Positions 1-64,000 of a stretch of DNA of 64,000 nt are shown piece by piece. The DNA is from Sipunculus nudus. Its lineage: Eukaryota > Annelida > Sipuncula > Golfingiida > Sipunculidae. The notes beneath the pieces are model-generated. The model had not been told where the DNA came from. It searched no databases and worked only from the letters and a program-made list of their open reading frames with translations. Numbering within the stretch: the stretch's first letter is position 1; each line of letters opens with the position of its first letter. The DNA lies in NCBI GenBank assembly GCA_026874595.1, contig CM049310.1, forward strand, positions 41,607,558 to 41,671,557. Direction: 5' to 3'. The position numbers and the translations under genes were made by a program.

Positions 1-295
1 CGGTCACTACATAAATAACTATATATGATTTTCATTTTTAATACAATAATAATTCCTATTATATTCTTGTTAAAATGTCAACTACATAGGTTTGAGCCAA
101 GATGAAATAAAAATTAACTTATCTTAACGTCACACCTTGAAGCTGTAAAAGGAGGACACCGGAAAATAATTACAATTAAAATGGGCAAAAAATGTGAAAC
201 CTGGATTCAGGAAAATCTGAAATTTAAGTATTCATACATGATGAACAAAAATGGAACAATAGACTCTTCGAATTTAACTTCGAAACTGTTAAGTT

Positions 296-366
296 GGCTC
301 GTTGGTGTAGGAGTAAGATTCTCGCTTCGGGTGCGAGAGCTTCCGGGTTCTATCCCGGACGAGCCC
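296..366 (+). pseudogene. Decayed tRNA-Pro(CGG), 71-nt form, unit 1
   Basis: Type copy of the common decayed form. The acceptor stem GGCTCGT/ACGAGCC, the anticodon stem CTCGC/GCGAG and the anticodon CGG are intact. The A box reads TGGTGTAGGAG instead of TGGTCTAGGGG, the T loop has 6 nt (TTCTAT) instead of 7, and the B box reads GGTTCTATCC, so the conserved purine after GGTTC is lost. A T4 run follows 7 nt downstream. Compare the intact gene at 17885-17956. Probably poorly transcribed and unable to form the D-loop/T-loop contact; function unknown. Confidence 0.85.
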
Positions 367-792
367 GGTATATTTTAGCCATCATTCGATTGCCCCTCGA
401 TCTTTGACCCGAGAATTTCTTCTTCCCGCTCACTAAGACAGCAGGTAATTTAGGTTCGCCATCAGACCTTGGTCGAACTTTTCTGTTAACGTTTTCACAC
501 ATATTTTGTAGGGAATTTCTCGAAATCAAATGACCGGGTGCCACAGCTCATACTAAAACATTAAAAGTATTTCAGAATATAAAATAATATAGCTTTTCAC
601 CGATCATATGTGCTTACCTGCAAATTTAGTTTTAATTGCTGTTGAGAAAGTGCATACATCTTGTTAATCCTAATATTTCAATTCGACAACCTCTGATTTA
701 TACTCACTAAAACTATAGCGTGGTTACAATATTATCGCCTACAGCAATGGGTCATGGGAGAGAGGGTTACCTGGTTTAATAGGTTAAAAATG

Positions 793-867
793 TGATTTCG
801 CATGGGGGTTCGAACCCTGGACCATTGGCGTGTGAGGCGACCCTGAGAGCCACTACACTTCGAAACC
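793..867 (-). pseudogene. psi-Val-1 (tRNA-Val(CAC)-like), unit 1
   Basis: Type copy. Read on the minus strand it begins GGTTTCGAAGTGTAGTGG, like tRNA-Val, and ends CGAAATCA, so a 7-bp acceptor stem (one G-T pair) is still possible. The anticodon loop CTCACAC keeps CAC. The anticodon stem has two mismatches, and the T arm carries two extra bases before the acceptor. The A box and the B box GGTTCGAACCC look good, and a T5 run follows the 3' end, so Pol III transcription is possible although a stable tRNA is unlikely. Confidence 0.8.
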
Positions 868-1047
868 GTTCGATAATGAACTTCAGTCATTCTGAAGCGT
901 AAGGATCATGTGCAAACTTGTTTTTTGGAGACCAGTTGGATATTGGATAGGGGAAGCTCACTTTGATTTTAAATTCAACCAGTCCAAAATAAAACAAATG
1001 AAGTATTAATATGATTCATGTTCAAAGAATCCCTAACTGGGAGCTGG

Positions 1048-1119
1048 GGTTTACGCTCTGATTCGAAATAAGGACCTGCCGCGTGTGAGATCAACCTGAG
1101 AGCGATCAGCCTCGAATCC
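1048..1119 (-). pseudogene. psi-Val-2 (strongly decayed tRNA-Val-like), unit 1
   Basis: Type copy. On the minus strand the anticodon loop CTCACAC and the following GCAGGTCC stretch align with tRNA-Val(CAC), but the acceptor stem (GGATTCG against CGTAAACC), D arm, anticodon stem and T stem are broken, and no oligo-T follows. This copy has gattcgaaataagg and cagcctcgaat variants, shared in part with units 3, 11 and 29. A relic, identified mainly by position and the anticodon loop. Confidence 0.65.
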
Positions 1120-1652
1120 GCTGGGTATCATACTTCGGTTCTTCTTAAGCATAACAATGATATGCCATACCATATCTCGAGGCCAGTTGAAAACTGTGCA
1201 GGGGAAAGCTCCTCTTTGGTTTGTTATCTGATCAGTCCATAAATAATATGACGTATAAATACGATTAAAAATCAGACGATTCCTAACTAGGAGGATACTC
1301 TCCTTCAGACATGAACAACGACAATATAAGTTGAACCAAAGTCAGATAAAGCCTGTGCTTCACACTTATATTTTAACAATATTGGAAACAAAAGTAAGAA
1401 GATGTAGCTTTTGATCGTATCACAGATGCGCAGCTGCAAATCAATTTAATATACTGTGGAGATAAAAATGGTCACTTCTGAACATGCTTCAAGTGACGAA
1501 CAGGAACTGAATTAAGCTTGATCACTCGGATGGATAAAACGAATATTCGCTTATTGATATTTCACAAATTACGACCTGAAGTATCCTATAATTATGTCTG
1601 ATCCAGTACATGCAAATGATAAAAAATGGTGGAGGTTATATTTGGATAAATA

Positions 1653-1725
1653 TGGTTCCGCTGGGGTTCGAACCCAGGACCTTTCGCGTGTGATGCGAAC
1701 GTGATATCCACTACACTACGAAACC
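1653..1725 (-). tRNA. tRNA-Val (anticodon CAC), unit 1, variant
   Basis: All four stems of the common array Val gene (see 10057-10129) are kept. Two changes: position 32 of the anticodon loop is A instead of C, and one D-loop base differs. The terminator directly after the gene is reduced to TTT; the nearest longer run is the T6 about 27 nt further on (plus-strand 1621-1626). It may be functional, with longer precursor tails. Confidence 0.82.
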
Positions 1726-2131
1726 GCTCGATATCGTGCCTTCTTCATTCTGAAGCTCAAGGATATTTTAGCTAATCTTTTATGCGACATCATCTGCAGA
1801 CCAAGGAGGGGTACTTCTTACCTCAGTTAAGAATCCGGTCAATACATAAATAACTATATATGATTTTCATTTTTAATACAATAATAATTCCTATTATATT
1901 CTTGTTTAAATGTCAACTACATAGGTTTGAGCCAAGATGAAATAAAAATTAACTTATCTTAACGTCACACCTTGAAAGCTGTAAAAGGAGGACACCGGAA
2001 AATATTTACAATTAAAATGGGCAACAAATGTGAAACCTGGATTCAGGAAAATCTGAAATTTAAGTATTCATACATGTTGAAGAAAAATGGAACAATAGAC
2101 TCTTCGAATTTAACTTCGAAACTGTTAAGTT

Positions 2132-2202
2132 GGCTCGTTGGTGTAGGAGTAAGATTCTCGCTTCGGGTGCGAGAGCTTCCGGGTTCTATCCCGGACGAGC
2201 CC
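2132..2202 (+). pseudogene. Decayed tRNA-Pro(CGG), 71-nt form, unit 2
   Basis: Same decayed sequence as 296-366. Confidence 0.85.
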
Positions 2203-2628
2203 GGTATATTTTAGCCATCATTCGATTGCCCCTCGATCTTTGACCCGAGAATTTCTTCTTCCCGCTCACTAAGACAGCAGGTAATTTAGGTTCGCCATCA
2301 GACCTTGGTCGAACTTTTCTGTTAACGTTATCACACATATTTTGTAGGGAATTTCTCGAAATCAAATGACCGGGTGCCACAGCTCATACTAAAACATTAA
2401 AAGTATTTAAGAATATAAAATAATATAGCTTTTCACCGATCACATGTGCTTACCTGCAAATTTAGTTTTAATTGCTGTTGAGAAAGTGCATACATCTTGT
2501 TAATCCTAATATTTCAATTCGACAACTTCTGATTTATACTCACTAAAACTATAGCGTGGTTACAATATTATCGCCTACAGCCATGGGTCATGGGAGAGAG
2601 GGTTACTTGGGTTAATAGGTTAAAAATG

Positions 2629-2703
2629 TGATTTCGCATGGGGGTTCGAACCCAGGACCATTGGCGTGTGAGGCGACCCTGATAGAGACTACACTTCGAA
2701 ACT
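2629..2703 (-). pseudogene. psi-Val-1, unit 2 (L-type)
   Basis: L-type version: the 5' end on the minus strand is AGTTTCG instead of GGTTTCG, and the D arm carries gatagagac on the plus strand, which spoils the A box. The T stem keeps CCTGGG as in functional Val. A T5 run follows. Confidence 0.75.
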
Positions 2704-2874
2704 GCTCGATAATGAAATTCCGTCATTCTAAAGCTTCAGGATCATGTGTAAACTGATTTTTTGGAGACCAATTGGAGAGGGGTAAGCTCACTTTGATTTT
2801 GAATCCTACCAGTCGATAATAAAACAAATGAAGTATTAATATGATTCATGTTCAAACAATCCCTAACTGGGAGC

Positions 2875-3478
2875 ATGTTCTACTCCAAATATCAACTATA
2901 TAGGATATTCAAGATCGAGTCAAAGTATCCTGTGGATATTGCAGATTATGTACAAACGTCTTAGGAGAAAAAGTTTATATCAAGAAAAAAAATGAAACTG
3001 GAAAGTTCTACAAAAATAATCAGTAATATCACTGAAGGACCTGAATTAAGGATGACTTCAAATTTTTACATTCAATCATGATGAACTTTATTGGAACGGA
3101 TCGTACAGCACTTTTTCAATTCGAAATCTTAAACACATGCCAGGGAACATATAGGTTGCGATAGGTCGCTCATTTCAAAGAAAAATACTTTCTTGTCAGT
3201 ATTGGAAAATGATGAATAAAAATATGTAGCTCTTAACCGAATCACAGGTGCGTATTCGACATGTATAAATTCACCGCAAAGGCACTAAAGTATCATCCTT
3301 ACACCAATTTTAATTGCTGTTCAGTAAATGAATACATCTTATTGGTCGATATATTTTTAAAATCGACAATTCTTAATTTATACAAATTTAAACTATGGCC
3401 TTTTAAAATAATATCTATTACGGCTTGTGACATGTGAAACATGGATTTTCAGGAGGAGGTTAATAGTCTAAGAATTTC
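2875..3478. repeat. B-module block, present only in long units (unit 2)
   Basis: Block absent from the short units, where agc at its left edge joins psi-Val-2 through two bases. It is an old diverged copy of the region around Pro and upstream of psi-Val-1: catgatgaac, attcgaaatcttaa and tttaattgctgtt match stretches in module A. Where Pro should lie (around 3130-3180) no tRNA can be folded. No gene seen. Confidence 0.8.
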
Positions 3479-3551
3479 GGTTTACGCTCTGGTTCGAAAT
3501 TAGGACCTACTGTGTGTGAGATTAACGTGAGAGCGATCAGGCTACGAATCC
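3479..3551 (-). pseudogene. psi-Val-2, unit 2 (L-type, 73 nt)
   Basis: L-type version with one extra base in the acceptor region (ggctacgaatcc) and tactgtgtgtgagatt around the anticodon, still giving CTCACAC on the minus strand. No terminator. Confidence 0.62.
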
Positions 3552-4075
3552 GCTGGGTATCATACTTCGGTTCTTCTTAAGCATAACAATGATATGCCAT
3601 ACCATATCTCGAGGCCAGTTGAAGACTTTGCAGGGGAAAGCTCCTCTTCGGTTTGTTATCTGATCAGTCCATAAATAATATGATATAAATACGATTAAAA
3701 ATCAGACGATCCCTAACTGGGAGAATACTCTCCTTCAAACATGAACAACGACAATATAAGTTGAACCAAAATCAGATAAAGCCTGTGCTTCATACATATA
3801 TTTTGACAATATTGGAAACAAAAGTAAGAAGATGTAGCTTTTGAGCGTATCACAGATGCGCAGCTGCAAATCAATTTAATATACTGTGGAGATAAGAATG
3901 ATTACTTCTGAACATGCTTCAAGTGACGAACATGAACTGAATTAAAGCTTGATCACTCGGATGGATAAAACTAATATTCGCTTATTTATATTTCACAAAT
4001 TACGACATGAAGTATCTTAAAATTATGTGTGATCCAGTACATTCAAATGTTAAAAAATGAGGTTATATTTGGCAA

Positions 4076-4089
4076 TACACTACGAAACC
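4076..4089 (-). pseudogene. tRNA-Val deletion scar, unit 2
   Basis: Only the first 14 nt of tRNA-Val (GGTTTCGTAGTGTA on the minus strand) remain, joined directly to ggcaa of the 3' flank. About 59 bp including the anticodon and B box are gone. This copy also lacks 4 bp just upstream (aaatgaggtt). Confidence 0.85.
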
Positions 4090-4494
4090 GCTCGTTATCG
4101 TGCCTTCTTTATTCTGAAGCTCAAGGATATTACAGCTAATCTTTTATGCGACATCCTCTGCAGACGAAAGTGGGGTACTTCTTACCTCAGTTAAGAATCC
4201 GGTCACTACATAAATAACTATATATGATTTTCATTTTTAATACAATAATAATTCCTATTATATTCTTGTTAAAATGTCAACTACATAGGTTTGAGCCAAG
4301 ATGAAATAAAAATTAACTTATCTTAACGTCACACCTTGAAGCTGTAAAAGGAGGACACCGGAAAATAATTACAATTAAAATGGGCAAAAAATGTGAAACC
4401 TGGATTCAGGAAAATCTGAAATTTAAGTATTCATACATGATGAACAAAAATGGAACAATAGACTCTTCGAATTTAACTTCGAAACTGTTAAGTT

Positions 4495-5851: not shown

Positions 5852-5924
5852 TGGTTCCGCTGGGGTTCGAACCCAGGACCTTTCGCGTGTGATGCGAACG
5901 TGATATCCACTACACTACGAAACC
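5852..5924 (-). tRNA. tRNA-Val (anticodon CAC), unit 3, variant
   Basis: Same two changes as the unit 1 gene (A at position 32 and a D-loop base) and the same weak TTT terminator. Confidence 0.82.
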
Positions 5925-6902: not shown

Positions 6903-7073
6903 GCTCGATCATGAAATTCCGTCATTCTAAAGCTTCAGGATCATGTGTAAACTGATTATTTGGAGACCAATTGGAGAGGGGTAAGCTCACTTTGATTTTG
7001 AATCCTACCAGTCGATAATAAAACAAATGAAGTATTAATATGATTCATGTTCAAACAATCCCTAACTGGGAGC

Positions 7074-7679
7074 ATGTTCTACTCCAAATATCAACTATAT
7101 AGGATATTCAAGATCGAGTCAAAGTATCCTGTGGATATTGCAGATCATGTACAAACGTCTTAGGAGAAAAAGTTTATATCAAGAAAAAAAATGAAACTGG
7201 AAAGTTCTACAAAAATAATCAGTAAAAAATCACTGAAGGACCTGAATTAAGGATGACTTCAAATTTTTACATTCAATCATGATGAACTTTATTGGAACGG
7301 ATTGTACAGCACTTTTTCAATTCGAAATCTTAAACACATGCCAGGGAACATATAGGTTGCGATAGGTCGCTCATTTCAAAGAAAAATACTTTCTTGTCAG
7401 TATTGGAAAATGATGAATAAAAATATGTAGCTCTTAACCGAATCACAGGTGCGTATTCGACATGTATAAATTCACCGCAAAGGCACTAAAGTATCATCCT
7501 TACACCAATTTTAATTGCTGTTCAGTAAATGAATACATCTTATTGGTCGATATATTTTTAAAATCGACAATTCTTAATTTATACAAATTTAAACTATGGC
7601 CTTTTAAAATAATATCTATTACAGCTTGTGACATGTGAAACATGGATTTTCAGGAGGAGGTTAATAGTCTAAGAATTTC
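7074..7679. repeat. B-module block (unit 4)
   Basis: Near copy of the block at 2875-3478. No gene seen. Confidence 0.8.
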
Positions 7680-7752
7680 GGTTTACGCTCTGGTTCGAAA
7701 TTAGGACCTACTGTGTGTGAGATTAACGTGAGAGCGATCAGGCTACGAATCC
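7680..7752 (-). pseudogene. psi-Val-2, unit 4 (L-type, 73 nt)
   Basis: Same as 3479-3551. Confidence 0.62.
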
Positions 7753-8280
7753 GCTGGGTATCATACTTCGGTTCTTCTTAAGCATAACAATGATATGCCA
7801 TACCATATCTCGAGGCCAGTTGAAGACTTTGCAGGGGAAAGCTCCTCTTCGGTTTGTTATCTGATCAGTCCATAAATAATATGATATAAATACGATTAAA
7901 GATCAGACGATCCCTAACTAGGCGAATACTCTCCTTCAAACATGAACAACGACAATATAAGTTGAACCAAAGTCAGATAAAGCCTGTGCTTCATACATAT
8001 ATTTTGACAATATTGGAAACAAAAGTAAGAAGATGTAGCTTTTGAGCGTATCACAGATGCGCAGCTGCAAATCAATTTAATATACTGTGGAGATAAGAAT
8101 GATTACTTCTGAACATGCTTCAAGTGACGAACATGAACTGAATTAAAGCTTGATCACTCGGAAGGATAAAACGAATATTCGCTTATTTATATTTCACAAA
8201 TTACGACATGAAGTATCTTATAATTATGTGTGATCCAGTACATGCAAATGTTAAAAAATGGTGGAGGTTATATTTGGCAA

Positions 8281-8294
8281 TACACTACGAAACC
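8281..8294 (-). pseudogene. tRNA-Val deletion scar, unit 4
   Basis: Same 14-nt remnant as in unit 2, but without the extra 4-bp loss upstream (aaatggtggaggtt kept). Confidence 0.85.
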
Positions 8295-8700
8295 GCTCGA
8301 TATCGTGCCTTCTTTATTCTGAAGCTCAAGGATATTATAGTTAATCTTTTATGCGACATCCTCTGCAGACGAAAGTGGGGTACTTCTTACCTCAGTTAAG
8401 AATCCGGTCACTACATAAATAACTATATATGATGTTCATTTTAAATACAATAATAATTCCTATTATATTCTCGATTAAATGTCAACTACATAGGTTTGAG
8501 CCAAGATGAAATAAAAATTAACTTATCTTAACATCACACCTTGACAGCTGTAAAAGGAGGACGCCGAAAAATATTTACAATTAAAATGGGCAAAAAATGT
8601 GAAACCTGGATTCAGGAAAATCTGAAATTTAAGTATTCATACATGTTGAAGAAAAATGGAACAATGGACTCTTCGAATTTAACTTCGACACTGTTAAGTT

Positions 8701-8771
8701 GGCTCGTTGGTGTAGGAGTAAGATTCTCGCTTCGGGTGCGAGAGCTTCCGGGTTCTATCCCGGACGAGCCC
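8701..8771 (+). pseudogene. Decayed tRNA-Pro(CGG), 71-nt form, unit 5
   Basis: Same decayed body as 296-366. The flank is cgacactgtt instead of cgaaactgtt. Confidence 0.85.
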
Positions 8772-9196
8772 GGTATATTTTAGCCATCATTCGATTGCCC
8801 CTCGATCTTTGACCCGAGAATTTCTTCTTCCCGCTCACTAAGACAGCAGGTAATTTAGGTTCGCCATCAGACCTTGGTCGATATTTTCTGTTAACGTTTT
8901 CACACATATTTTGTAGGGAATTTCTCGAAATCAAATGACCGGGTGCCACAGCTCCTACTAAAACATTAAAAGTATTTCAGAATATAAAATAATATAGCTT
9001 TTCACCGATTACATGTGCTTACCTGCAAATTTAGTTTTAATTGCTGTTGAGAAAGTGCATACATCTTGTTACTCCTAATATTTCAATTCGACAACCTCTG
9101 ATTTATAATCGCTAAAACTATAGCGTGGTTACAATATTATCGCCTACAGCCATGGGTCATGGGAGAGAGGGTTACCTGGTTTAATAGTTTAAAATG

Positions 9197-9271
9197 TGAT
9201 TTCGCATGGGGGTTCAAACCCTGGACCATTGGCGTGTGAGGCGACCCTGAGAGCCACTACACTTCGAAACC
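9197..9271 (-). pseudogene. psi-Val-1, unit 5
   Basis: The B box is damaged (GGTTTGAACC on the minus strand). The terminator run is T4. Confidence 0.78.
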
Positions 9272-9452
9272 GTTCGATAATGAACTTCAGTCATTCTGAA
9301 GCGTAAGTATCATGTGCAAACTTGTTTTTTGGAGACCAGTTGGATATTGGATAGGGGGAAACTCACTTTGATTTTGAATTCAACCAGTCCAAAATAAAAC
9401 ATATGAAGTATTAATATGATTCATGTTCAAAGAATCCCTAACTGGGAGCTGG

Positions 9453-9524
9453 GGTTTACGCTCTGGTTCGAAATTAGGACCTGCCGGGTGTGAGATCAAC
9501 GTGAGAGCGATCAGGCTCGAATCC
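9453..9524 (-). pseudogene. psi-Val-2, unit 5
   Basis: S-type with ctggttcgaaattagg and gccgggtgtgag. Anticodon loop CTCACAC kept; stems broken. Confidence 0.65.
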
Positions 9525-10056
9525 GCTGGGTATCATACTTCGGTTCTTCTTAAGCATAACAATGATATGCCATACCATATCTCGAGGCCAGTTGAAGACT
9601 GCGCAGGGGAAAGCTCCTCTTTGGTTTGTTATCTGATCAGTCCATAAATAATATGACGTATAAATACGATTAAAAATCAGACGATTCCTAACTAGGAGAA
9701 TACTCTCCTTCAGACATGAACAACGACAATATAAGTTGAACCAAAGTCAGATAAGCCTGTGCTTCATACTTATATTTTAACAATATTGGAAACAAAAGTA
9801 AGAAGATGTAGCTCTTGAGCGTATCACAGATGCCCAGCTGCAAATCAATTTAATATACTATGGAGATAAAAATGGTCACTTCTGAACATGGTTCAAGTGA
9901 CGAACAGGAACTGAATTAAGCTTGATCACTCGGATGGATAAAACGAATATTCGCTTATTTATATTTCACAAATTACGACCTGAAGTTCTTTTAATTATGT
10001 CTGATCCAGTACATGCAAATGATAAAAAATGGTGGAGGTTATATTTGGGAAAAATA

Positions 10057-10129
10057 TGGTTCCGCTGGGGTTCGAACCCAGGACCTTTCGCGTGTGAGGC
10101 GAACGTGATAGCCACTACACTACGAAACC
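10057..10129 (-). tRNA. tRNA-Val (anticodon CAC), unit 5, reference copy
   Basis: Intact cloverleaf on the minus strand: acceptor GGTTTCG/CGGAACC (7 bp, one T-G pair), discriminator A, anticodon stem TTCGC/GCGAA around loop CTCACAC with anticodon CAC at plus 10094-10096, T arm CTGGG-TTCGAAC-CCCAG. Internal promoters: A box TAGTGTAGTGG and B box GGTTCGAACCC, both matching the Pol III consensus. T5 terminator 4 nt after the gene, with a T6 backup run further on. CCA is not encoded and there is no intron, as expected for a nuclear tRNA gene. It should decode GTG valine codons. It is head to head with the Pro locus of the next unit. The body is identical in most other Val copies here. Confidence 0.94.
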
Positions 10130-10535
10130 GCTCGATATCGTGCCTTCTTCATTCTGAAGCTCAAGGATATTTTAGCTAATCTTTTATGCGACATCATCTG
10201 CAGACCAAGGTGGGGTACATCTTACCTCAGTTAAGAATCCGGTCACTACATAAATAACTATATATGATTTTCATTTTAAATACAATAATAATTCCTATTA
10301 TATTCTTGTTTAAATGTCAACTACATAGGCTTGAGCCAAGTTAAAATAAAAATTAACTTATCTTAACGTCACACCTTGAAAGCTGTAAAAGGAGGACACC
10401 GGAAAATATTTACAATTAAAATGGGCAAAAAATGTGAAACCTGGATTCAGGAAAATCTGAAATTTAAGTATTCATAGATGATGAACAAAAATGGAACAAT
10501 AGACTCTTCGAATTTAACTTCGACACTGTTAAGTT

Positions 10536-10606
10536 GGCTCGTTGGTGTAGGAGTAAGATTCTCGCTTCGGGTGCGAGAGCTTCCGGGTTCTATCCCGGAC
10601 GAGCCC
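10536..10606 (+). pseudogene. Decayed tRNA-Pro(CGG), 71-nt form, unit 6
   Basis: Same decayed body as 296-366. Confidence 0.85.
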
Positions 10607-11032
10607 GGTATATTTTAGCCATCATTCGATTGCCCCTCGATCTTTGACCCGAGAATTTCTTCTTCCCGCTCACTAAGACAGCAGGTAATTTAGGTTCGCC
10701 ATCAGACCTTGGTCGATCTTTTCTGGTAACGTTTTCACACATATTTTGTAGGGAATTTCTCGAAATCAAATGACCGGGTGCCACAGCTCATACTAAAACA
10801 TTAAAAGTATTTCAGAATATAAAATAATATAGCTTTTCACCGATCACATGTGCTTACCTGCAAATTTAGTTTTAATTGCTGTGGAGAAAGTGCATACATC
10901 TTGTTAATCCTAATATTTTAATTCGACAACCTCTGATTTATACTCACTAAAACTATAGCGTGGTTACAATATTATCGCCTACAGCAATGGGTCATGGGAG
11001 AGAGGGTTACCTGGTTTAATAGGTTAGAAATG

Positions 11033-11107
11033 TGATTTCGCATGGGGATTCGAACCCTGGACCATTGGCGTGTGAGGCGACCCTGAGAGCCACTACACTT
11101 CGAAACC
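11033..11107 (-). pseudogene. psi-Val-1, unit 6
   Basis: B box GGTTCGAATCC still fits the consensus, but the terminator run is broken to TTT by the ttagaaatg change. Confidence 0.78.
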
Positions 11108-11289
11108 GTTCGATAATGAACTTTAGTCATTCTGAAGCGTAAGGATCATGTGCAAACTTGTTTTTTTGGAGACCAGTTGGATATTGGATAGGGGGAAACT
11201 CACTTTGATTTTAAATTCAACCAGTCCAAAATAAAACAAATGAAGTATTAATATGATTAATGTTCAAACAATCCCTAACTGGGAGCTGG

Positions 11290-11361
11290 GGTTTACGCTC
11301 TGGTTCGAAATTAGGACCTGCCGCGTGTGAGATCAACGTGAGAGCGATCAGGCTCGAATCC
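11290..11361 (-). pseudogene. psi-Val-2, unit 6
   Basis: Common S-type psi-Val-2 (ctggttcgaaattagg, gccgcgtgtgag). Confidence 0.65.
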
Positions 11362-11894
11362 GCTGGGTATCATACTTCGGTTCTTCTTAAGCATAACAAT
11401 GATATGCCAAACCATATCCCGAGGCCAGTTGAAGACTGCGCAGGGGAAAACTCCTCTTTGGTTTGTTATCTGATCAGTCCATAAATAATATGAAGTATAA
11501 ATACGATTAAAAATCAGACGATTCCTAACTAGGAGAATACTCTCCTTCAGACATGAACAACGACAATATAAGTTGAACCAAAGTCAGATAAGCCTGTGCT
11601 TCATACTTATATTTTAACAATATTGGAAACAAAAGTAAGACGATGTAGCTTTTGATCGTATCACAGATGCGCAGCTGCAAATCAATTTAATATACTGTGG
11701 AGATAAAAATGGTCACTTCTGAACATGCTTCAAGTGACGCACAGGAACTGAATTAAGCTTGATCACTCGGATGGATAAAACGAATATTCGCTTATTGATA
11801 TTTCACAAATTACGACCTGAAGTATCCTATAATTATGTCTGATCCAGTACATGCAAATGATAAAAAATGGTGGAGGTTATATTTGGGAAATATA

Positions 11895-11967
11895 TGGTTC
11901 CGCTGGGGTTCGAACCCAGGACCTTTCGCGTGTGAGGCGAACGTGATAGCCACTACACTACGAAACC
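11895..11967 (-). tRNA. tRNA-Val (anticodon CAC), unit 6
   Basis: Body identical to 10057-10129, but the terminator is weakened (ATATATTTCCC after the gene instead of ATATTTTTCCC). Transcripts may run on to the T6 run about 30 nt downstream. Confidence 0.9.
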
Positions 11968-12373
11968 GCTCGATATCGTGCCTTCTTCATTCTGAAGCTC
12001 AAGGATATTTTAGCTAATCTTTTATGCGACATCATCTGCAGACCAAGGTGGGGTACTTCTTACCTCAGTTAAGAATCCGGTCACTACATAAATAACTATA
12101 TATGATTTTCATTTTAAATACAATAATAATTCCTATTATATTCTTGTTTAAATGTCAACTACATAGGCTTGAGCCAAGTTGAAATAAAAATTAACTTATC
12201 TTAACGTCACACCTTGAAAGCTGTAAAAGGAGGACACCGGAAAATATTTACAATTAAAATGGGCAAAAAATGTGAAACCTGGATTCAGGAAAATCTGAAA
12301 TTTAAGTATTCATAGATGATGAACAAAAATGGAACCATAGACTATTCGAATTTAACTTCGACACTGTTAAGTT

Positions 12374-12444
12374 GGCTCGTTGGTGAAGGAGTAAGATTCT
12401 CGCTTCGGGTGCGAGAGCTTCCGGGTTCTATCCCGGACGAGCCC
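12374..12444 (+). pseudogene. Decayed tRNA-Pro(CGG), 71-nt form, unit 7
   Basis: As 296-366 with one more A-box change (ggtgaagga). Confidence 0.85.
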
Positions 12445-12870
12445 GGTATATTTTAGCCATCATTCGATTGCCCCTCGATCTTTGACCCGAGAATTTCTTC
12501 TTCCCGCTCACTAAGACAGCAGGTAATTTAGGTTCGCCATCAGACCTTGGTCGATCTTTTCTGGTAACGTTTTCACACATATTTTGTAGGGAATTTCTCG
12601 AAATCAAATGACCGGGTGCCACAGCTCATACTAAAACATTAAAAGTATTTCAGAATATAAAATAATATAGCTTTTCACCGATCACATGTGCTTACCTGCA
12701 AATTTAGTTTTAATTGCTGTGGAGAAAGTGCATACATCTTGTTAATCCTAATATTTCAATTCGACAACCTCTGATTTATACTCACTAAAACTATAGCGTG
12801 GTTACAATATTATCGCCTACAGCAATGGGTCATGGGAGAGAGGGTTACCTGGTTTAATAGGTTAGAAATG

Positions 12871-12945
12871 TGATTTCGCATGGGGATTCGAACCCTGGAC
12901 CATTGGCGTGTGAGGCGACCCTGAGAGCCACTACACTTCGAAACC
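12871..12945 (-). pseudogene. psi-Val-1, unit 7
   Basis: Same as unit 6; terminator lost. Confidence 0.78.
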
Positions 12946-13127
12946 GTTCGATAATGAACTTCAGTCATTCTGAAGCGTAAGGATCATGTGCAAACTTGTT
13001 TTTTTGGAGACCAGTTGGATATTGGATAGGGGGAAACTCACTTTGATTTTAAATTCAACCAGTCCAAAATAAAACAAATGAAGTATTAATATGATAAATG
13101 TTCAAACAATCCCTAACTGGGAGCTGG

Positions 13128-13199
13128 GGTTTACGCTCTGGTTCGAAATTAGGACCTGCCGCGTGTGAGATCAACGTGAGAGCGATCAGGCTCGAATCC
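13128..13199 (-). pseudogene. psi-Val-2, unit 7
   Basis: Common S-type. Confidence 0.65.
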
Positions 13200-13732
13200 G
13201 CTGGGTATCATACTTCGGTTCTTCTTAAGCATAACAATGATATGCCAAACCATATCCCGAGGCCAGTTGAAGACTGCGCAGGGGAAAACTCCTCTTTGGT
13301 TTGTTATCTGATCAGTCCATAAATAATATGAAGTATAAATACGATTAAAAATCAGACGATTCCTAACTAGGAGAATACTCTCCTTCAGACATGAACAACG
13401 ACAATATAAGTTGAACCAAAGTCAGATAAGCCTGTGCTTCATACTTATATTTTAACAATATTGGAAACAAAAGTAAGACGATGTAGCTTTTGATCGTATC
13501 ACAGATGCGCAGCTGCAAATCAATTTAATATACTGTGGAGATAAAAATGGTCACTTCTGAACATGCTTCAAGTGACGCACAGGAACTGAATTAAGCTTGA
13601 TCACTCGGATGGATAAAACGAATATTCGCTTATTGATATTTCACAAATTACGACCTGAAGTATCCTATAATTATGTCTGATCCAGTACATGCAAATGATA
13701 AAAAATGGTGGAGGTTATATTTGGGAAAAATA

Positions 13733-13805
13733 TGGTTCCGCTGGGGTTCGAACCCAGGACCTTTCGCGTGTGAGGCGAACGTGATAGCCACTACACTACG
13801 AAACC
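13733..13805 (-). tRNA. tRNA-Val (anticodon CAC), unit 7
   Basis: Body identical to 10057-10129; T5 terminator present. Confidence 0.94.
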
Positions 13806-14211
13806 GCTCGATATCGTGCCTTCTTCATTCTGAAGCTCAAGGATATTTTAGCTAATCTTTTATGCGACATCATCTGCAGACCAAGGTGGGGTACTTCTTA
13901 CCTCAGTTAAGAATCCGGTCACTACATAAATAACTATATATGATTTTCATTTTAAATACAATAATAATTCCTATTATATTCTTGTTTAAATGTCAACTAC
14001 ATAGGCTTGAGCCAAGTTGAAATAAAAATTAACTTATCTTAACGTCACACCTTGAAAGCTGTAAAAGGAGGACACCGGAAAATATTTACAATTAAAATGG
14101 GCAAAAAATGTGAAACCTGGATTCAGGAAAATCTGAAATTTAAGTATTCATAGATGATGAACAAAAATGGAACAATAGACTATTCGAATTTAACTTCGAC
14201 ACTGTTAAGTT

Positions 14212-14282
14212 GGCTCGTTGGTGTAGGAGTAAGATTCTCGCTTCGGGTGCGAGAGCTTCCGGGTTCTATCCCGGACGAGCCC
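14212..14282 (+). pseudogene. Decayed tRNA-Pro(CGG), 71-nt form, unit 8
   Basis: Same decayed body as 296-366. Confidence 0.85.
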
Positions 14283-14708
14283 GGTATATTTTAGCCATCA
14301 TTCGATTGCCCCTCGATCTTTGACCCGAGAATTTCTTCTTCCCGCTCACTAAGACAGCAGGTAATTTAGGTTCGCCATCAGACCTTGGTCGATCTTTTCT
14401 GGTAACGTTTTCACACATATTTTGTAGGGAATTTCTCGAAATCAAATGACCGGGTGCCACAGCTCATACTAAAACATTAAAAGTATTTCAGAATATAAAA
14501 TAATATAGCTTTTCACCGATCACATGTGCTTACCTGCAAATTTAGTTTTAATTGCTGTGGAGAAAGTGCATACATCTTGTTAATCCTAATATTTTAATTC
14601 GACAACCTCTGATTTATACTCACTAAAACTATAGCGTGGTTACAATATTATCGCCTACAGCAATGGGTCATGGGAGAGAGGGTTACCTGGTTTAATAGGT
14701 TAGAAATG

Positions 14709-14783
14709 TGATTTAGCATGGGGATTCGAACCCTGGACCATTGGCGTGTGAGGCGACCCTGAGAGCCACTACACTTCGAAACC
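14709..14783 (-). pseudogene. psi-Val-1, unit 8
   Basis: As unit 6, with a further acceptor-stem change (gatttagc). Terminator lost. Confidence 0.77.
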
Positions 14784-17405: not shown

Positions 17406-17478
17406 TGGTTCCGCTGGGGTTCGAACCCAGGACCTTTTGCGTGTGAGGCGAACGTGATAGCCACTACACTACGAAACC
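17406..17478 (-). tRNA. tRNA-Val (anticodon CAC), unit 9, stem variant
   Basis: As 10057-10129 except for one anticodon-stem base: the 3' strand reads GCAAA instead of GCGAA, leaving a C-A mismatch in the middle of the stem. T5 terminator present. Probably transcribed; folding may be weaker. Confidence 0.84.
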
Positions 17479-17884: not shown

Positions 17885-17956
17885 GGCTCGTTGGTCTAGG
17901 GGTATGATTCTCGCTTCGGGTGCGAGAGGTCCCGGGTTCAATTCCCGGACGAGCCC
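17885..17956 (+). tRNA. tRNA-Pro (anticodon CGG), unit 10, reference intact copy
   Basis: 72-nt gene with a complete cloverleaf: acceptor GGCTCGT/ACGAGCC, discriminator C, anticodon stem CTCGC/GCGAG with loop TTCGGGT and anticodon CGG (17917-17919), T arm CCGGG-TTCAATT-CCCGG. The A box TGGTCTAGGGG and B box GGTTCAATTCC fit the Pol III consensus. A T4 run lies 7 nt after the gene. No intron and no encoded CCA. It should decode CCG proline codons. One of only five intact Pro copies among 33 units. Confidence 0.92.
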
Positions 17957-24450: not shown

Positions 24451-24521
24451 GGCTCGTTGGTGTAGGAGTAAGATTCTCGCTTCGGGTGCGAGAGCTTCCG
24501 GGTTCTATCTCGGACGAGCCC
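24451..24521 (+). pseudogene. Decayed tRNA-Pro(CGG), 71-nt form, unit 13
   Basis: As 296-366 with a T-stem change (ctatctcggac). Confidence 0.85.
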
Positions 24522-24946
24522 GGTATATTTTAGCCATCATTCGATTGCCCCTCGATCTTTGACCCGAGAATTTCTTCTTCCCGCTCACTAAGACAGCAGG
24601 TAATTTAGGTTCGCCATCAGACCTTGGTCGATATTTTCTGTTAACGTTTTCACACATATTTTGTAGGGAATTTCTCGAAATCAAATGACCGGGTGCCACA
24701 GCTCCTACTAAAACATTAAAAGTATTTCAGAATATAAAATAATATAGCTTTTCACCGATCACATGTGCTTACCTGCAAATTTAGTTTTAATTGCTGTTGA
24801 GAAAGTGCATACATCTTGTTACTCCTAATATTTCAATTCGACAACCTCTGATTTATAATCGGTAAAACTATAGCGTGGTTACAATATTATCGCCTACAGC
24901 CATGGGTCATGGGAGAGAGGGTTACCTGGTTTAATAGTTTAAAATG

Positions 24947-25021
24947 TGATTTCGCATGGGGGTTCAAACCCTGGACCATTGGCGTGTGAGGCGACCCTGA
25001 GAGCCACTACACTTCGAAACC
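24947..25021 (-). pseudogene. psi-Val-1, unit 13
   Basis: As unit 5: damaged B box and T4 run. Confidence 0.78.
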
Positions 25022-25202
25022 GTTCGATAATGAACTTCAGTCATTCTGAAGCGTAAGTATCATGTGCAAACTTGTTTTTTGGAGACCAGTTGGATATTGG
25101 ATAGGGGGAAACTCACTTTGATTTTGAATTCAACCAGTCCAAAATAAAACAAATGAAGTATTAATATGATTCCTGTTCAAAGAATCCCTAACTGGGAGCT
25201 GG

Positions 25203-25274
25203 GGTTTACGCTCTGGTTCGAAATTAGGACCTGCCGGGTGTGAGATCAACGTGAGAGCGATCAGGCTCGAATCC
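25203..25274 (-). pseudogene. psi-Val-2, unit 13
   Basis: As unit 5 (gccgggtgtgag). Confidence 0.65.
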
Positions 25275-25802
25275 GCTGGGTATCATACTTCGGTTCTTCT
25301 TAAGCATAACAATGATATGCCATACCATATCTCGAGGCCAGTTGAAGACTTTGCAGGGGAAAGCTCCTCTTCGGTTTGTTATCTGATCAGTCCATAAATA
25401 ATATGATATAAATACGATTAAAAATCAGACGATCCCTAACTAGGCGAATACTCTCCTTCAAACATGAACAACGACAATATAAGTTGAACCAAAGTCAGAT
25501 AAAGCCTGTGCTTCATACATATATTTTGACAATATTGGAAACAAAAGTAAGAAGATGTAGCTTTTGAGCGTATCACAGATGCGCAGCTGCAAATCAATTT
25601 AATATACTGTGGAGATAAGAATGATTACTTCTGAACATGCTTCAAGTGACGAACATGAACTGAATTAAAGCTTGATCACTCGGATGGATAAAACGAATAT
25701 TCGCTTATTTATATTTCACAAATTACGACATGAAGTATCTTATAATTATGTGTGATCCAGTACATGCAAATGTTAAAAAATGGTGGAGGTTATATTTGGC
25801 AA

Positions 25803-25816
25803 TACACTACGAAACC
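25803..25816 (-). pseudogene. tRNA-Val deletion scar, unit 13
   Basis: Same 14-nt remnant, now in a short-unit context. Confidence 0.85.
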
Positions 25817-26222
25817 GCTCGATATCGTGCCTTCTTTATTCTGAAGCTCAAGGATATTATAGCTAATCTTTTATGCGACATCCTCTGCAGACGAAAGTGG
25901 GGTACTTCTTACCTCAGTTAAGAGTCCGGTCACTATATAAATAACTATATATGATTTTCATTTTTAATACAATAATAATTCCTATTATATTCTTGTTAAA
26001 ATGTCAACAACATAGGTTTGAGCCAAAATGAAATAAAAATTAACTTATCTTAACGTCACACCTTGAAAGCTGTAAAAGGAGGACACCGGGAAATATTTAC
26101 AATTAAAATGGGCAAAAAATGTGAGACCTGGATTCAGGAAAATCTGAAATTTAAGTATTCATACATGTTGAACAAAAATGGAACAATAGACTCTTCGAAT
26201 TTAACTTCGACACTGTTAAGTT

Positions 26223-40784: not shown

Positions 40785-40854
40785 GGCTCGTTGGTGTAGG
40801 AGTGAGTTCTCGCTTCGGGTGCGAGAGCTTCCGGGTTCTATCCCGGACGAGCCC
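40785..40854 (+). pseudogene. Decayed tRNA-Pro(CGG), 70-nt form, unit 22
   Basis: Type copy of a second decayed form: in addition to the 71-nt defects, the D arm is one base shorter (gagtgagttctcgc instead of gagtaagattctcgc). Acceptor, anticodon arm and CGG intact. Confidence 0.85.
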
Positions 40855-46291: not shown

Positions 46292-46363
46292 GGCTCGTTG
46301 GTCTAGGGGTATGATTCTCGCTTCGGGTGCGAGAGGTCCCGGGTTCAATTCCCGGACGAGCCC
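46292..46363 (+). tRNA. tRNA-Pro (anticodon CGG), unit 25
   Basis: Body identical to the intact gene at 17885-17956; T5 terminator (gatatatttttag). Confidence 0.93.
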
Positions 46364-46790
46364 GATATATTTTTAGCCATCCTTAGATTGCCCCTCGATC
46401 TTTCACCTGAGAATTTCTTCTTCCCGCTCACTTAGACCGCAGATAATTTAGGTTCGTCATTAGACCTTGGTCGATCTTTTCTGTTAACGTTTTCATACAT
46501 ATTTTGTAGGGAATTTCTCGAAATCAAATGACCGGGTGCCACAGCTCATACTAAAACATTAAAAGTATTTCAGAATATAAAATAATATAGCTTTTCACCG
46601 ATCACATGTGCTTACCTGCAAATTTAGTTTTAATTGCTGTGGAGAAAGTGCATACATCTTGTTAATCCTAATATTTCAATTCGACAACCTCTGATTTATA
46701 CTCACTTAAACTATAGCGTGGTTACAATATTATCGCCTACAGCCATGGGTCATGGGAGAAAGGGTTACTTGGGTTAATAGGATAAAAATG

Positions 46791-46865
46791 TGATTTCGCA
46801 TGGGGGTTCGAACCCTGGACCATTGGCGTGTGAGGCGACCCTGAGAGCCACTACACTTCGAAACC
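46791..46865 (-). pseudogene. psi-Val-1, unit 25
   Basis: As 793-867: A and B boxes good and T5 run kept. Confidence 0.8.
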
Positions 46866-47043
46866 GTTCGACAATGAACTTCAGTCATTCTGAAGCTTAA
46901 GGATCATGTGCTAACTTGTTTTTTGGAGACCAGTTGGATATTGGATAGGGGGAAACTCACTTTGATTTTGAATCCAACCAGTCCAAAATAAAACAAATGA
47001 AGTATTAATATGATTCATGTTCAAACAATCCCTAACTGGGAGC

Positions 47044-47630
47044 ATGTTCTACTTCAAATATCAACGATATAGGATATTCAAGATCAAGTCAAAGTATCCT
47101 ATGGATACTGCAGATCATGTACAAATGTGATAGGAGAAAAAGTTTATGTCAAGAAAAAAATGAAACTGGAAAGTTCTACAAAAATAATCAGTAATATCAC
47201 TGAAGGACCTGAATTAAGGATGACTTCAAATTTTTACATTCAATCATGATGAACTTTATTGGAACGGATCGTACAGCACTTTTTCAATTCGAAATCTTAA
47301 ACTCATGCCAGGGAACAGATAGGTTGCGATATGTCGCTCATTTAAAAAAAAAGATACTTTCTTGTCAGTATTGGAGAATGATGAATAAAAATATGTAGCT
47401 GTCGTATTCGACATGTATAAATTCACCGCGAAGGCACTAGAGTATCATCCTTACACCCATTTCAATTGCTGTTCAGTAAATGAATATATCTCATTGGTCG
47501 TTATATTTTTAAAATCGACAATCCTTAATTTATACAAACTTAAACAAAGGACTTTATAAATAATATCTACTCTAGCTTGTGACATGTGAAACATGGATGT
47601 TCAGGAGGAGGTAAATAGTCTAAGTATTTC
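47044..47630. repeat. B-module block (unit 25)
   Basis: 587-bp version, diverged from the L-delta blocks: an internal loss (tagctgtcgtattcg) and many substitutions. Ties it to unit 28. No gene seen. Confidence 0.8.
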
Positions 47631-47702
47631 GGTTTACGCTCTGGTTCGAAATTAGGACCTGCCGCGTGTGAGATCAACGTGAGAGCGATCAGGCTCGAAT
47701 CC
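47631..47702 (-). pseudogene. psi-Val-2, unit 25
   Basis: S-type body although it follows the long block; lacks the extra base of the L-delta copies. Confidence 0.65.
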
Positions 47703-48236
47703 GCTGGGTATCATACTTCGGTTCTTCTTAAGCATAACAATGATATGCCATACCATATCTCGAGGCCAGTTGAAGACTGCGCAGGGGAAAGCTCCTCTTT
47801 GGTTTGTTATCTGATCAGTCCATAAATAATATGACGTATAAATACGATTAAAAATCAGACGATTCCTAACTAGGAGGATACTCTCCTTCAGACATGAACA
47901 ACGACAATATCAGTTGAACCAAAGTCAGATAAAGCCTGTGCTTCATACTTATATTTTAACAATATTGGAAACAAAAGTAAGAAGATGTAGCTTTTGATCG
48001 TCTCACAGATGCGCAGCTGCAAATCAATTTAATATACTGTGGAGATAAAAATAGTCACTTCTGAACATGCTTCAAGTGACGAACAGGAACTGAATTAAGC
48101 TTGATCACTCGGATGGATAAAACGAATATTCGCTTATTGATATTTCACAAATTACGACATGAAGTATCTTATAATTATGTGTCATCCAGTACATGCAAAT
48201 GATGAAAAATGGTGGAGGTTATATTTGGCAAAAATG

Positions 48237-48309
48237 TGGTTCCGCTGGGGTTCGAACCCAGGACCTTTCGCATGTGAGGCGAACGTGATAGCCACTACAC
48301 TACGAAACC
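48237..48309 (-). tRNA. tRNA-Val (anticodon CAC), unit 25, variant
   Basis: As 10057-10129 but T at position 38 of the anticodon loop (tcgcatgtgagg on plus). The 3' flank is ttggcaaaaatgtgg, still a T5 terminator. The same ttggcaa flank appears at the delta-Val scars. Confidence 0.9.
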
Positions 48310-48716
48310 GCTCGATATCGTGCCTTCTTTATTCTGAAGCTCAAGGATATTACAGCTAATCTTTTATGCGACATCCTCTGCAGACGAAAGTGGGGTACTT
48401 CTTACCTCAGTTAAGAATCCGGTCACTACATAAATAACTATATATGATTTTCATTTTTTAATACAATAATAATTCCTATTATATTCTTGTTTAAATGTCA
48501 ACTACATAGGTTTGAGCCAAGATGAAATAAAAATTAACTTATCTTAACGTCACACCTTGAAAGCTGTAAAAGGAGGACACCGGAAAATATTTACAATTAA
48601 ATTGGGCAAAAAATGTGAAACCTGGATTCAGGAAAATCTGAAATTTAAGTATTCATACATGATGAACAAAAATGGAACAATAGACTCTTCGAATTTAACT
48701 TCGACACTGTTAAGTT

Positions 48717-52388: not shown

Positions 52389-52460
52389 GGCTCGTTGGTC
52401 TAGGGGTATGATTCTCGCTTCGGGTGCGAGAGGTCCCGGGTTCAATTCCCGGACGAGCCC
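52389..52460 (+). tRNA. tRNA-Pro (anticodon CGG), unit 28
   Basis: Body identical to 17885-17956; T5 terminator. Confidence 0.93.
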
Positions 52461-60325: not shown

Positions 60326-60397
60326 GGCTCGTTGGTCTAGGGGTATGATTCTCGTTTCGGGTGCGAGAGGTCCCGGGTTCAATTCCCGGACGAGCCC
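60326..60397 (+). tRNA. tRNA-Pro (anticodon CGG), unit 32
   Basis: As 17885-17956 with one anticodon-stem change (ctcgtttcggg), turning the last C-G pair of the stem into a T-G wobble. T5 terminator. Likely still functional. Confidence 0.89.
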
Positions 60398-61758: not shown

Positions 61759-62164
61759 GCTCGATATCGTGCTTTTTTCATTCTGAAGCTCAAGGATATT
61801 TTAGCTAATCTTTTATGCGACATCATCTGCAGACCAAGGTGGGGTACTTCTTACCTCAGTTAAGAATCCGGTCACTACATAAATAACTATATATGATTTT
61901 CATTTTTAATACAATAATAATTCCTATTATATTCCTGTTTAAATGTCAACTACATAGGTTTGAGCCAAGATGAAATAAAAATTAACATACCTTAACGTCA
62001 CACCTTGTAAGCTGTAAAAGGAGGACGCCGGAAAATATTTACAATGAAAATGGGCAAAAAATGTGAGACCTGGATTCAGGAAAATCTGAAATGTAAGTAT
62101 TCATACATATTGAACAAAAATGGAACAATAGACTCTTCGAATTTCACTTCGACACTGTTAAGTT

Positions 62165-62236
62165 GGCTCGTTGGTCTAGGGGTATGATTCTCGCTTCGGG
62201 TGCGAGAGGACCCGGGTTCAATTCCCGGACGAGCCC
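62165..62236 (+). tRNA. tRNA-Pro (anticodon CGG), unit 33
   Basis: As 17885-17956 with one variable-loop change (gagaggaccc for gagaggtccc); stems and boxes intact; T5 terminator. Confidence 0.91.
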
Positions 62237-62663
62237 GATATATTTTTAGCCATCCTTAGATTGCCCCTCGATCTTTCACCTGAGAATTTCTTCTTCCCGC
62301 TCACTTAGACCGCAGATAATTTAGGTTCGTCATTAGACCTTGGTCGATCTTTTCTGTTAACGTTTTCATACATATTTTGTAGGGAATTTCTCGAAATCAA
62401 ATGACCGGGTGCCACAGCTCATACTAAAACATTAAAAGTATTTCAGAATATAAAATAATATAGCTTTTCACCGATCACATGTGCTTACCTGCAAATTTAG
62501 TTTTAATTGCTGTGGAGAAAGTGCATACATCTTGTTAATCCTAATATTTCAATTCGACAACCTCTGATTTACACTCACTAAAACTATAGCGTGGTTACAA
62601 TATTATCGCCTACAGCAATGGGTCATGGGAGAGAGGGTTACCTGGTTTAATAGGTTAAAAATG

Positions 62664-62738
62664 TGATTTCGCATGGGGGTTCGAACCCTGGACCATTGGC
62701 GTGTGAGGCGACCCTGAGAGCCACTACACTTCGAAACC
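62664..62738 (-). pseudogene. psi-Val-1, unit 33
   Basis: As unit 32, T5 run kept. Confidence 0.8.
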
Positions 62739-62919
62739 GTTCGATAATGAACTTCAGTCATTCTGAAGCGTAAGGATCATGTGCAAACTTGTTTTTTGGA
62801 GACCAGTTGGATATTGGATAGGGGGAAGCTCACTTTGATTTTAAATTCAACCAGTCCACAATAAAACAAATGAAGTATTAATATGATTCATGTTCGAAGA
62901 ATCCCTAACTGGGAGCTGG

Positions 62920-62991
62920 GGTTTACGCTCTGATTTGAAATAAGGACCTGCCGCGTGTGAGATCAACGTGAGAGCGATCAGGCTCGAATCC
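62920..62991 (-). pseudogene. psi-Val-2, unit 33
   Basis: Same as unit 32. Confidence 0.62.
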
Positions 62992-63524
62992 GCTGGGTAT
63001 CATACTTCGGTTCTTCTTAAGCATAACAATGATATGCCAAACCATATCCCGAGGCCAGTTGAAGACTGCGCAGGGGAAAACTCCTCTTTGGTTTGTTATC
63101 TGATGAGTCCATAAATAATATGAAGTATAAATACGATTAAAAATCAGACGATTCCTAACTAGGAGAATACTCTCCTTCAGACATGAACAACGACAATATA
63201 AGTAGAACCAAAGTCAGATAAGCCTGTGCTTCATACTTATATTTTAACAATATTGGAAACAAAAGTAAGAAGATGTAGCTTTTGATCGTATCACAGATGC
63301 GCAGCTGCAAATCAATTTAATATACTGTGGAGATAAAAATGGTCACTTCTGAATATGCTTCAAGAGACGAACAGGATCTGAATTAAGCTTGATCACTCGG
63401 ATGGATAAAACGAATATTCGCTTATTGATATTTCACAAATTACGACCTGAAGTATCCTATAATTATGTCTGATCCAGTACATGCAAATGATAAAAAATGG
63501 TGGAGGTTATATTTGGGAAAAATA

Positions 63525-63597
63525 TGGTTCCGCTGGGGTTCGAACCCAGGACCTTTCGCGTGTGAGGCGAACGTGATAGCCACTACACTACGAAACC
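63525..63597 (-). tRNA. tRNA-Val (anticodon CAC), unit 33
   Basis: Body identical to 10057-10129; T5 terminator. Confidence 0.94.
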
Positions 63598-63707
63598 GCT
63601 CGATATCGTGCTTTTTTCATTCTGAAGCTCAAGGATATTTTAGCTAATCTTTTATGCGACATCATCTGCAGACCAAGGTGGGGTACTTCTTACCTCAGTT
63701 AAGAATC

Positions 63708-64000
63708 CGGTCACTACATAAATAACTATATATGATTTTCATTTTTAATACAATAATAATTCCTATTATATTCCTGTTTAAATGTCAACTACATAGGTTT
63801 GAGCCAAGATGAAATAAAAATTAACATACCTTAACGTCACACCTTGTAAGCTGTAAAAGGAGGACGCCGGAAAATATTTACAATGAAAATGGGCAAAAAA
63901 TGTGAGACCTGGATTCAGGAAAATCTGAAATGTAAGTATTCATACATATTGAACAAAAATGGAACAATAGACTCTTCGAATTTCACTTCGACACTGTTAA
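63708..64000. repeat. Array unit 34, partial (first 293 bp)
   Basis: Cut by the window end just before the Pro locus. It carries the flank haplotype (aacatacc, ttgtaagctg, acaatgaaaatg) found only in front of intact Pro genes, so an intact tRNA-Pro is expected just outside the window. Confidence 0.93.

Follow-up and report, generated by a model that had tools for sequence, protein, structure and literature searches.

Large clusters of transfer RNA (tRNA) genes arose many times in eukaryotes, according to the authors of PMC2888827, who find 65% of tRNA genes and pseudogenes in clusters in zebrafish and 87% in stickleback. Entamoeba histolytica carries almost all of its tRNA genes in arrays, with short tandem repeats between the genes (PMC2652664). 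A human tRNA tandem repeat at 1q23.3 consists of 7.3-kb units with 64% GC and five tRNA genes, present in 9 to 43 units per allele (PMC4041453), and Xenopus has tandem tRNA gene arrays that are activated at zygotic genome activation (PMC11500080). Here, we describe a 64,000-nucleotide stretch of the Sipunculus nudus genome (contig CM049310.1, called C5 below, positions 41,607,558 to 41,671,557 of a 1.43-Gb, 153-contig assembly); "the window" refers to this whole stretch. It is the middle portion of a ~220-kb array of repeated units that carry tRNA-Pro(CGG) and tRNA-Val(CAC) genes or their relics. Head-to-tail units, two outer edges, intact and relic genes, and mosaic units are all observed, and we consider it highly probable that the locus is a tandem tRNA gene array (macrosatellite) whose units are shuffled and re-amplified by unequal exchange and gene conversion.

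This kind of array is already known from frogs, humans, and Entamoeba. The Xenopus array has a 3.18-kb unit and a different tRNA set, whereas the C5 unit, known here from sequence alone, combines one Pro site with three Val-derived segments, many of these copies being relics. Common to both is the tandem arrangement of tRNA genes in the genome of an animal (PMC11500080). The human 1q23.3 repeat is likewise a multi-tRNA tandem unit, described among macrosatellites (PMC4041453), but the C5 units measure 1.8 to 2.4 kb at 38% GC (in the window), the array has at least 97 Pro sites, and Pro in the window is mostly relic. As in Entamoeba, there are several arrays that differ in the one or few tRNA types they carry, and the authors of PMC2652664 invoke concerted evolution; here, however, some tRNA genes lie outside arrays (as found with Pro-CGG, Val-CAC, Asp, and Gly-GCC patterns), and Tandem Repeats Finder, with periods up to 500, reported no repeat in the window. 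The zebrafish and stickleback clusters are defined by gaps of <1,000 nt, and the relevant passages of PMC2888827 describe neither a C5-type unit nor mosaic units. The preliminary description of the window was right to name Entamoeba (PMC2652664) and Xenopus (PMC11500080) as precedents. Among the literature matches listed, a minority of the matching papers, none concerned a Pro/Val macrosatellite.

Extent and composition of the array

Window tRNA genes were detected with ARAGORN, with Rfam at its gathering threshold, by BLAST with parts of the unit, and through unit coverage. Three unit types account, head to tail, for 63,987 of the 64,000 window bases, every uncovered stretch being shorter than 15 bp. 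BLAST with unit parts found 34 copies of a 120-bp anchor, which bound 33 complete units (u10 to u42) of 1,772 to 2,423 bp from anchor to anchor; the 32 Pro-to-Pro spacings are 1,772 to 2,425 bp. The preliminary description had proposed 33 complete units of 1.77 to 2.42 kb filling the window without unique DNA, in an array larger than 64 kb, and each of these points is borne out, since the array continues past the window on both the left and the right. The locus shows three features expected of a tandem tRNA array, or macrosatellite: kilobase-size head-to-tail units with at least one tRNA gene, structurally intact tRNA genes within them (above Rfam gathering, 26 for Val and 5 for Pro in the window), and exchange and homogenization between units.

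The left edge of the array lies at ~41,585,967, and unit matches in a contiguous 101.6 kb are on the same strand throughout. On the right, hits continue as far as 41,807,381 for Pro and 41,805,071 for Val, which places the array end at least there; positions 41,820,001 to 41,827,728 are without unit sequence, and beyond this gap an outlying decayed unit, interrupted by 2,188 bp of other DNA, ends at 41,832,601. Array sequence was read over a continuous 95.6 kb (41,585,967 to 41,681,557, with a single uncovered piece of 83 bp), in locus L030 (10 kb at 41,747,001), and at the right edge. Within 41,681,558 to 41,807,381, L030 alone was examined by sequence and the remainder is represented by pattern hits; 41,807,381 to 41,820,000 and five 3.1-kb loci further right were outside the analysis.

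ARAGORN made 59 calls in the window, 33 Pro-CGG on the forward strand and 26 Val-CAC on the reverse strand, and the 31 Rfam gathering matches comprise 26 Val and 5 Pro. These 33 Pro sites and 26 Val genes agree with the earlier view that every unit has tRNA-Pro(CGG) or its relic and usually tRNA-Val(CAC). A two-gene unit, as then proposed, proved too simple: each of the 33 units consists of Pro plus three Val-derived segments, two of them relics that had been missed.

All Pro sites in the window are on the forward strand; 5 of 33 are intact (72 nt, Rfam 52.1 to 54.4 bits), and the other 28 are relics of 70 to 71 nt, all with one base missing from the T-arm and with several substitutions in common, and none is matched by Rfam at gathering. 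The intact tRNA-Pro resembles the animal form. With relaxed Rfam settings, positions 8415 to 19965 gave no tRNA match at E ≤ 1 for the five relic Pro copies in that interval. All 33 Pro copies are followed, within 15 bases on the 3' side, by four or more consecutive T. Pro sites across the array number 97 or more (including one in the outlying unit), with 38 of intact type, 50 of exact relic type, and 9 further relic-like copies. These counts are lower bounds merged from three pattern searches, one of which gave the best 100 of 127 matches, and more mutated copies fall outside them, for example the unit at 41,591,758, which has an intact-type T-arm string and is matched by none of the three patterns. 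Among the sites listed, the intact type makes up 2 of 6 to the left of the window, 5 of 33 within it, and 31 of 58 to the right, so that the earlier claim of dominance by decayed copies holds for the window and less so for the array.

The Val(CAC) gene is found in 26 window units (Rfam 57.0 to 65.4 bits), with 19 identical copies; from the other 7 of 33 units, counted Pro to Pro or as the last partial unit, it is missing, most of the gene being deleted. A five-T run lies immediately 3' of Val in 22 of the 26 copies, and the next run is ~25 bases on in the other 4. Each unit also has two older Val-derived relics on the same strand as Val (33 of each in the window), which, where BLAST aligns them, are 83 to 89% (first relic) and 71 to 80% (second relic) identical to Val, over the window, L030, and both array edges taken together. 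Within the 2,425-bp unit, the two relic regions resemble each other (65% over 450 bp), and both resemble Val (79% over 121 bp for the first, 70% over 101 bp for the second). Judging by these internal similarities, a Val module beside Pro was probably duplicated repeatedly to form the unit.

The 1.84-kb form of the unit is without ~590 bp found in the 2.36- to 2.43-kb forms. Because the seven leftmost complete units of the array are all 2,112 to 2,483 bp long, we infer that a longer form is ancestral. The internal higher-order structure noted in the preliminary description is evident as a 1772/1837/1835 triplet that occurs three times in a row (u22 to u24, u25 to u27, and u28 to u30, the last being 1773/1837/1836) and, right of the window, as an exact 10,311-bp spacing of three sets of three Pro sites. 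Coordinates of the window features are collected in Table 1.

The edge tRNAs that pass Rfam score 40.2 to 50.5 bits on the left (five, in L018, L117, and L116) and 40.9 and 50.7 bits on the right (two, in L118), compared with 54.4 bits for Pro and 65.4 bits for Val in the commonest central forms. Low scores are not exclusive to the edges, as many interior relics fall below gathering. L030 contains, at 7069 to 9836, a 2,696-bp Pro-to-Pro unit with an additional, interior Val-like segment that scores 31.1 bits (8427 to 8499); this unit is possibly a product of unequal exchange. At the left edge, Pro relics with the anticodon CGA (L116 3792, L117 4156, and L117 6531) are called Ser(CGA) by ARAGORN.

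Table 1. Positions of array features within the 64,000-nucleotide window.
Feature	Position	Strand	Remarks
Macrosatellite interior: 33 complete head-to-tail units and a partial unit at each end	1..64000	+	From anchor copies and unit coverage
Intact-type tRNA-Pro(CGG), 72 nt	17885..17956	+	Rfam 54.4 bits
Intact-type tRNA-Pro(CGG)	46292..46363	+	Rfam 54.4 bits
Intact-type tRNA-Pro(CGG)	52389..52460	+	Rfam 54.4 bits
Intact-type tRNA-Pro(CGG), single anticodon-arm change	60326..60397	+	Rfam 52.1 bits
Intact-type tRNA-Pro(CGG), single change not in anticodon arm	62165..62236	+	Rfam 54.4 bits
Commonest relic tRNA-Pro, 14 identical copies, T-arm one base short	296..366; starts 2132, 4495, 6331, 8701, 10536, 14212, 16048, 22087, 28060, 31667, 33504, 35339, 38949	+	Below Rfam gathering; called by ARAGORN
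Relic tRNA-Pro, one substitution relative to commonest relic	12374..12444	+	Other variants with 1 or 2 substitutions start at 20251, 24451, 26223, 29895, 37112, 54814, 56651, 58489
Relic tRNA-Pro, 70-nt subtype, second base lost	40785..40854; starts 42621, 44457, 48717, 50553	+	
tRNA-Val(CAC), two-change variant	1653..1725; also 5852..5924	-	Rfam 61.2 bits
tRNA-Val(CAC), main form, 19 identical copies	10057..10129; starts 11895, 13733, 15569, 27581, 29416, 33025, 34860, 38470, 40306, 42142, 43978, 45814, 50074, 56172, 58009, 59847, 61686, 63525	-	Rfam 65.4 bits
tRNA-Val(CAC), single change relative to main form	17406..17478; others start 21608, 48237, 51910, 54334	-	Rfam 57.0 to 64.9 bits
First Val-derived relic of the unit	800..872	-	One per unit, 33 units
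Second Val-derived relic, more diverged	1043..1122	-	One per unit, 33 units
Long unit, 2,363 bp Pro to Pro; ~590 bp extra between Val relics, most of Val deleted	2132..4494	+	Also starts 6331, 17885, 22087
Short unit, 1,772 bp, without Val gene; within 3-unit higher-order repeat of ~5,444 bp	24451..26222	+	Also starts 29895, 35339
Long unit, Pro-to-Pro length 2,425 bp, carrying both intact Pro and a Val gene	46292..48716	+	Second copy starts 52389 (u34 and u37, anchor to anchor, 99.92% identical)

Exchange between units and competing explanations

We aligned 47 units of the contiguous part and, excluding the leftmost nine (u1 to u9), analyzed 38, of which 30 carry relic Pro and 8 intact Pro. 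Relic-Pro and intact-Pro units show 27 near-fixed differences (present in at least 90% of the former and at least 75% of the latter; 23 are listed as fully fixed), all of them at unit positions 57 to 489 and none at 1 to 56 or 490 to 1,838, so that the two classes differ only within ~430 bp. Changes are denser around Pro, for which transcription-associated mutation would be a candidate cause. Long and short unit classes differ at 762 to 1,798 (14 sites), and classes with and without Val differ at 1,189 to 1,798 (21 sites); six of the eight combinations of Pro state, unit length, and Val state are present. Over 130 informative sites in the 38 units, mean r2 falls from 0.46 at distances up to 50 bp to 0.08 at 1.3 to 1.84 kb, while the fraction of site pairs with four gametes climbs from 0.05 to 0.72. 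The correlation of linkage with distance is -0.370, a value attained in 0 of 500 shuffles of site positions (null standard deviation, 0.022). Together, the decay of linkage and the confinement of the Pro-class differences to ~430 bp indicate that the units are mosaic, through unequal exchange plus gene conversion. The units have swapped pieces, and working and broken copies therefore stand side by side. Unit pairs that are at least 99.5% identical number 5 of 37 at lag 1 and 7 of 35 at lag 3; short exchange tracts combined with amplification of multi-unit blocks explain the linkage decay, the lag-3 pairs, and the 10,311-bp spacing.

Most exact arm matches for tRNA-Val(CAC) and tRNA-Pro(CGG) in the assembly sit in the array, which is presumably the main source of these tRNAs: 29 of 33 for Pro-CGG (one in the outlying unit; all 64 matches listed), with 4 elsewhere, and 67 of 70 for Val-CAC (among the best 100 of 136 matches), with 3 elsewhere. 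Intact copies would be transcribed by RNA polymerase III from internal promoters, with termination at the nearby T-runs. The array would expand and contract through unequal crossing-over and through amplification of units, one to several at once, and tracts of a few hundred bases, through gene conversion or double exchange, would move segments between units. With surplus copies, the target of selection would be how many work in total and not each one singly, and for that reason the ~430-bp broken Pro block and the Val deletion could rise locally and then be re-amplified as any satellite variant.

Several points weigh against this interpretation. ARAGORN accepts all 28 window Pro relics as tRNA; pattern-hit gaps of 6.7 to 8.7 kb to the right of the window could conceal interruptions; the position-shuffle control ignores kinship among units; and the assembled copy number could be wrong. 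Segregating sites, too, separate Val (4 of 73) little from the first Val relic (5 of 73, at approximate coordinates), compared with 90 of 877 in four neighboring stretches. Val diversity is 0.0068 (31 units with Val), whereas 73-bp windows have a median of 0.0216, with 5.4% of them below the Val value, and the Val flanks stand at 0.024 to 0.025, making modest selection on Val likely in this sample.

That modest signal of constraint leaves some room for the view that this is an ordinary satellite with incidental tRNA-derived sequence, no longer supplying tRNA, as do the 28 relics among the 33 window Pro copies, the two of three Val segments per unit that are relics, and the fact that amplification spreads relic and intact copies equally. 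We nevertheless find this view improbable, given a full, high-scoring Val gene in 26 of the 33 window units, the concentration of exact Pro-CGG and Val-CAC arm matches in the array, and the intact genes of other tRNAs in other arrays.

The preliminary description had itself named an assembly artefact as a possible refutation, and the idea that a small array was inflated by erroneous duplication of units could draw on the units that are 99.9% identical and on the exact 10,311-bp spacing. We judge it very unlikely, because the 38 units differ pairwise (93.3 to 99.95% identity) and carry distinct indels and mosaics, the DNA at the left and right ends is unlike the unit types, and the six leftmost units are more distant, with median identities of 91.9 to 95.1% to the 38 core units compared with the core's own median of 96.9%. 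Hardly to be expected either is selection on the relic Pro itself in a role other than tRNA, such as TFIIIC binding or a chromatin boundary: the relic is widespread (59 relic or relic-like copies among at least 97 Pro sites) and has 14 identical window copies, but its diversity of 0.0153 (30 relic units) is ordinary, 18.6% of windows being lower, and its B-box is one base short, a change expected to weaken TFIIIC binding.

tRNA genes and arrays elsewhere in the assembly

The tandem tRNA array on C5 is accompanied by others. A Lys(TTT)-plus-Met(CAT) array with a ~1.67-kb unit occupies C9 40.605 to 40.700 Mb and accounts for 46 of 63 scored rows (of 100,426 candidates), its tRNA types having been read in L029 (C9:40603501-40609500) only; a Pro(TGG)-plus-Gln(CTG) array lies at C14 19.08 to 19.15 Mb, with two of each gene read in L032. 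At C2 24.97 to 25.11 Mb, a Val(AAC) array with Asp(GTC) has at least 30 Val(AAC) copies among the matches listed and contains 14 of the 19 assembly matches to the Asp(GTC) pattern; two Val and one Asp were read in L119 (C2:25025001-25029300). It is possibly a second case in which one partner decays, although the lower Asp count on C2 may partly stem from the search pattern. A Gly-GCC pattern places 43 of its 51 matches at C14 50.25 to 50.36 Mb, mostly ~2.09 kb apart, a region known from pattern spacing alone. All eight Phe pattern matches fall, irregularly spaced, in a single C8 region, and the one that was read is degenerate (33.3 bits, with no ARAGORN call).

A spacer common to the arrays was not found in three of the four other arrays, the Gly array being outside the comparison. 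Neither the Lys/Met locus (L029) nor the C8 locus (L120) is matched by the C5 unit, and the unit's matches to L032 (Pro-TGG), L119 (Val-AAC), and L031 (solo Val) barely exceed the gene, at 74 to 89 bp. A tentative generalization, which we hold to be possible rather than probable, is that most tRNA genes have moved into several unrelated macrosatellites of one isoacceptor or pair, as in Entamoeba, and that such arrays retain one partner gene as the other decays (on C5, Val-CAC would be the retained gene and Pro the decaying one; on C2, Val-AAC and Asp would have these roles).

Other observations were made along the way. In L029, the first Met-like match reaches 29.5 bits and those deeper in reach 61.3 and 55.8 bits, perhaps a sign of edge decay as on C5. 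The top scores of the tRNA search were four 78.5-bit matches within ~620 bases of a small contig (C115:112291-112909). Bacterial-type cytochrome oxidase genes with near-equal scores occur on C60, C61, C62, C66, C72, C74, C75, and C89 (L034); C61 is 2.17 Mb long, and C89 has two such genes ~2.04 Mb apart. For the gene on one contig, the nearest of the best 80 GTDB loci, which come from many phyla, is 58% identical. The eight contigs suggest a ~2-Mb symbiont or contaminant, present in several versions. An oxidase-subunit-like gene on a 112-kb contig (L033, C123:9201-10700), whose motifs look like those of a cbb3-type subunit, perhaps marks a second bacterial source. COX1 hits in the assembly fall mainly on bacterial contigs, and C5 itself has a weak COX1 match of 42.3 bits.

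Significance of a recombining tRNA array

The preliminary description called the array unusual. Arrays of this general kind have precedents. Less usual are the size of the C5 array, its coexistence with other tRNA arrays in the genome, and the fact that a relic allele has spread alongside intact ones while the units visibly recombine. Working and broken alleles of one tRNA at no fewer than 97 linked, recombined sites make the length of exchange tracts measurable, and the array allows us to ask how many intact copies persist when selection acts on total gene dosage. If it is true that the other arrays behave alike, S. nudus would offer a counterpart to the Entamoeba system in a large genome.

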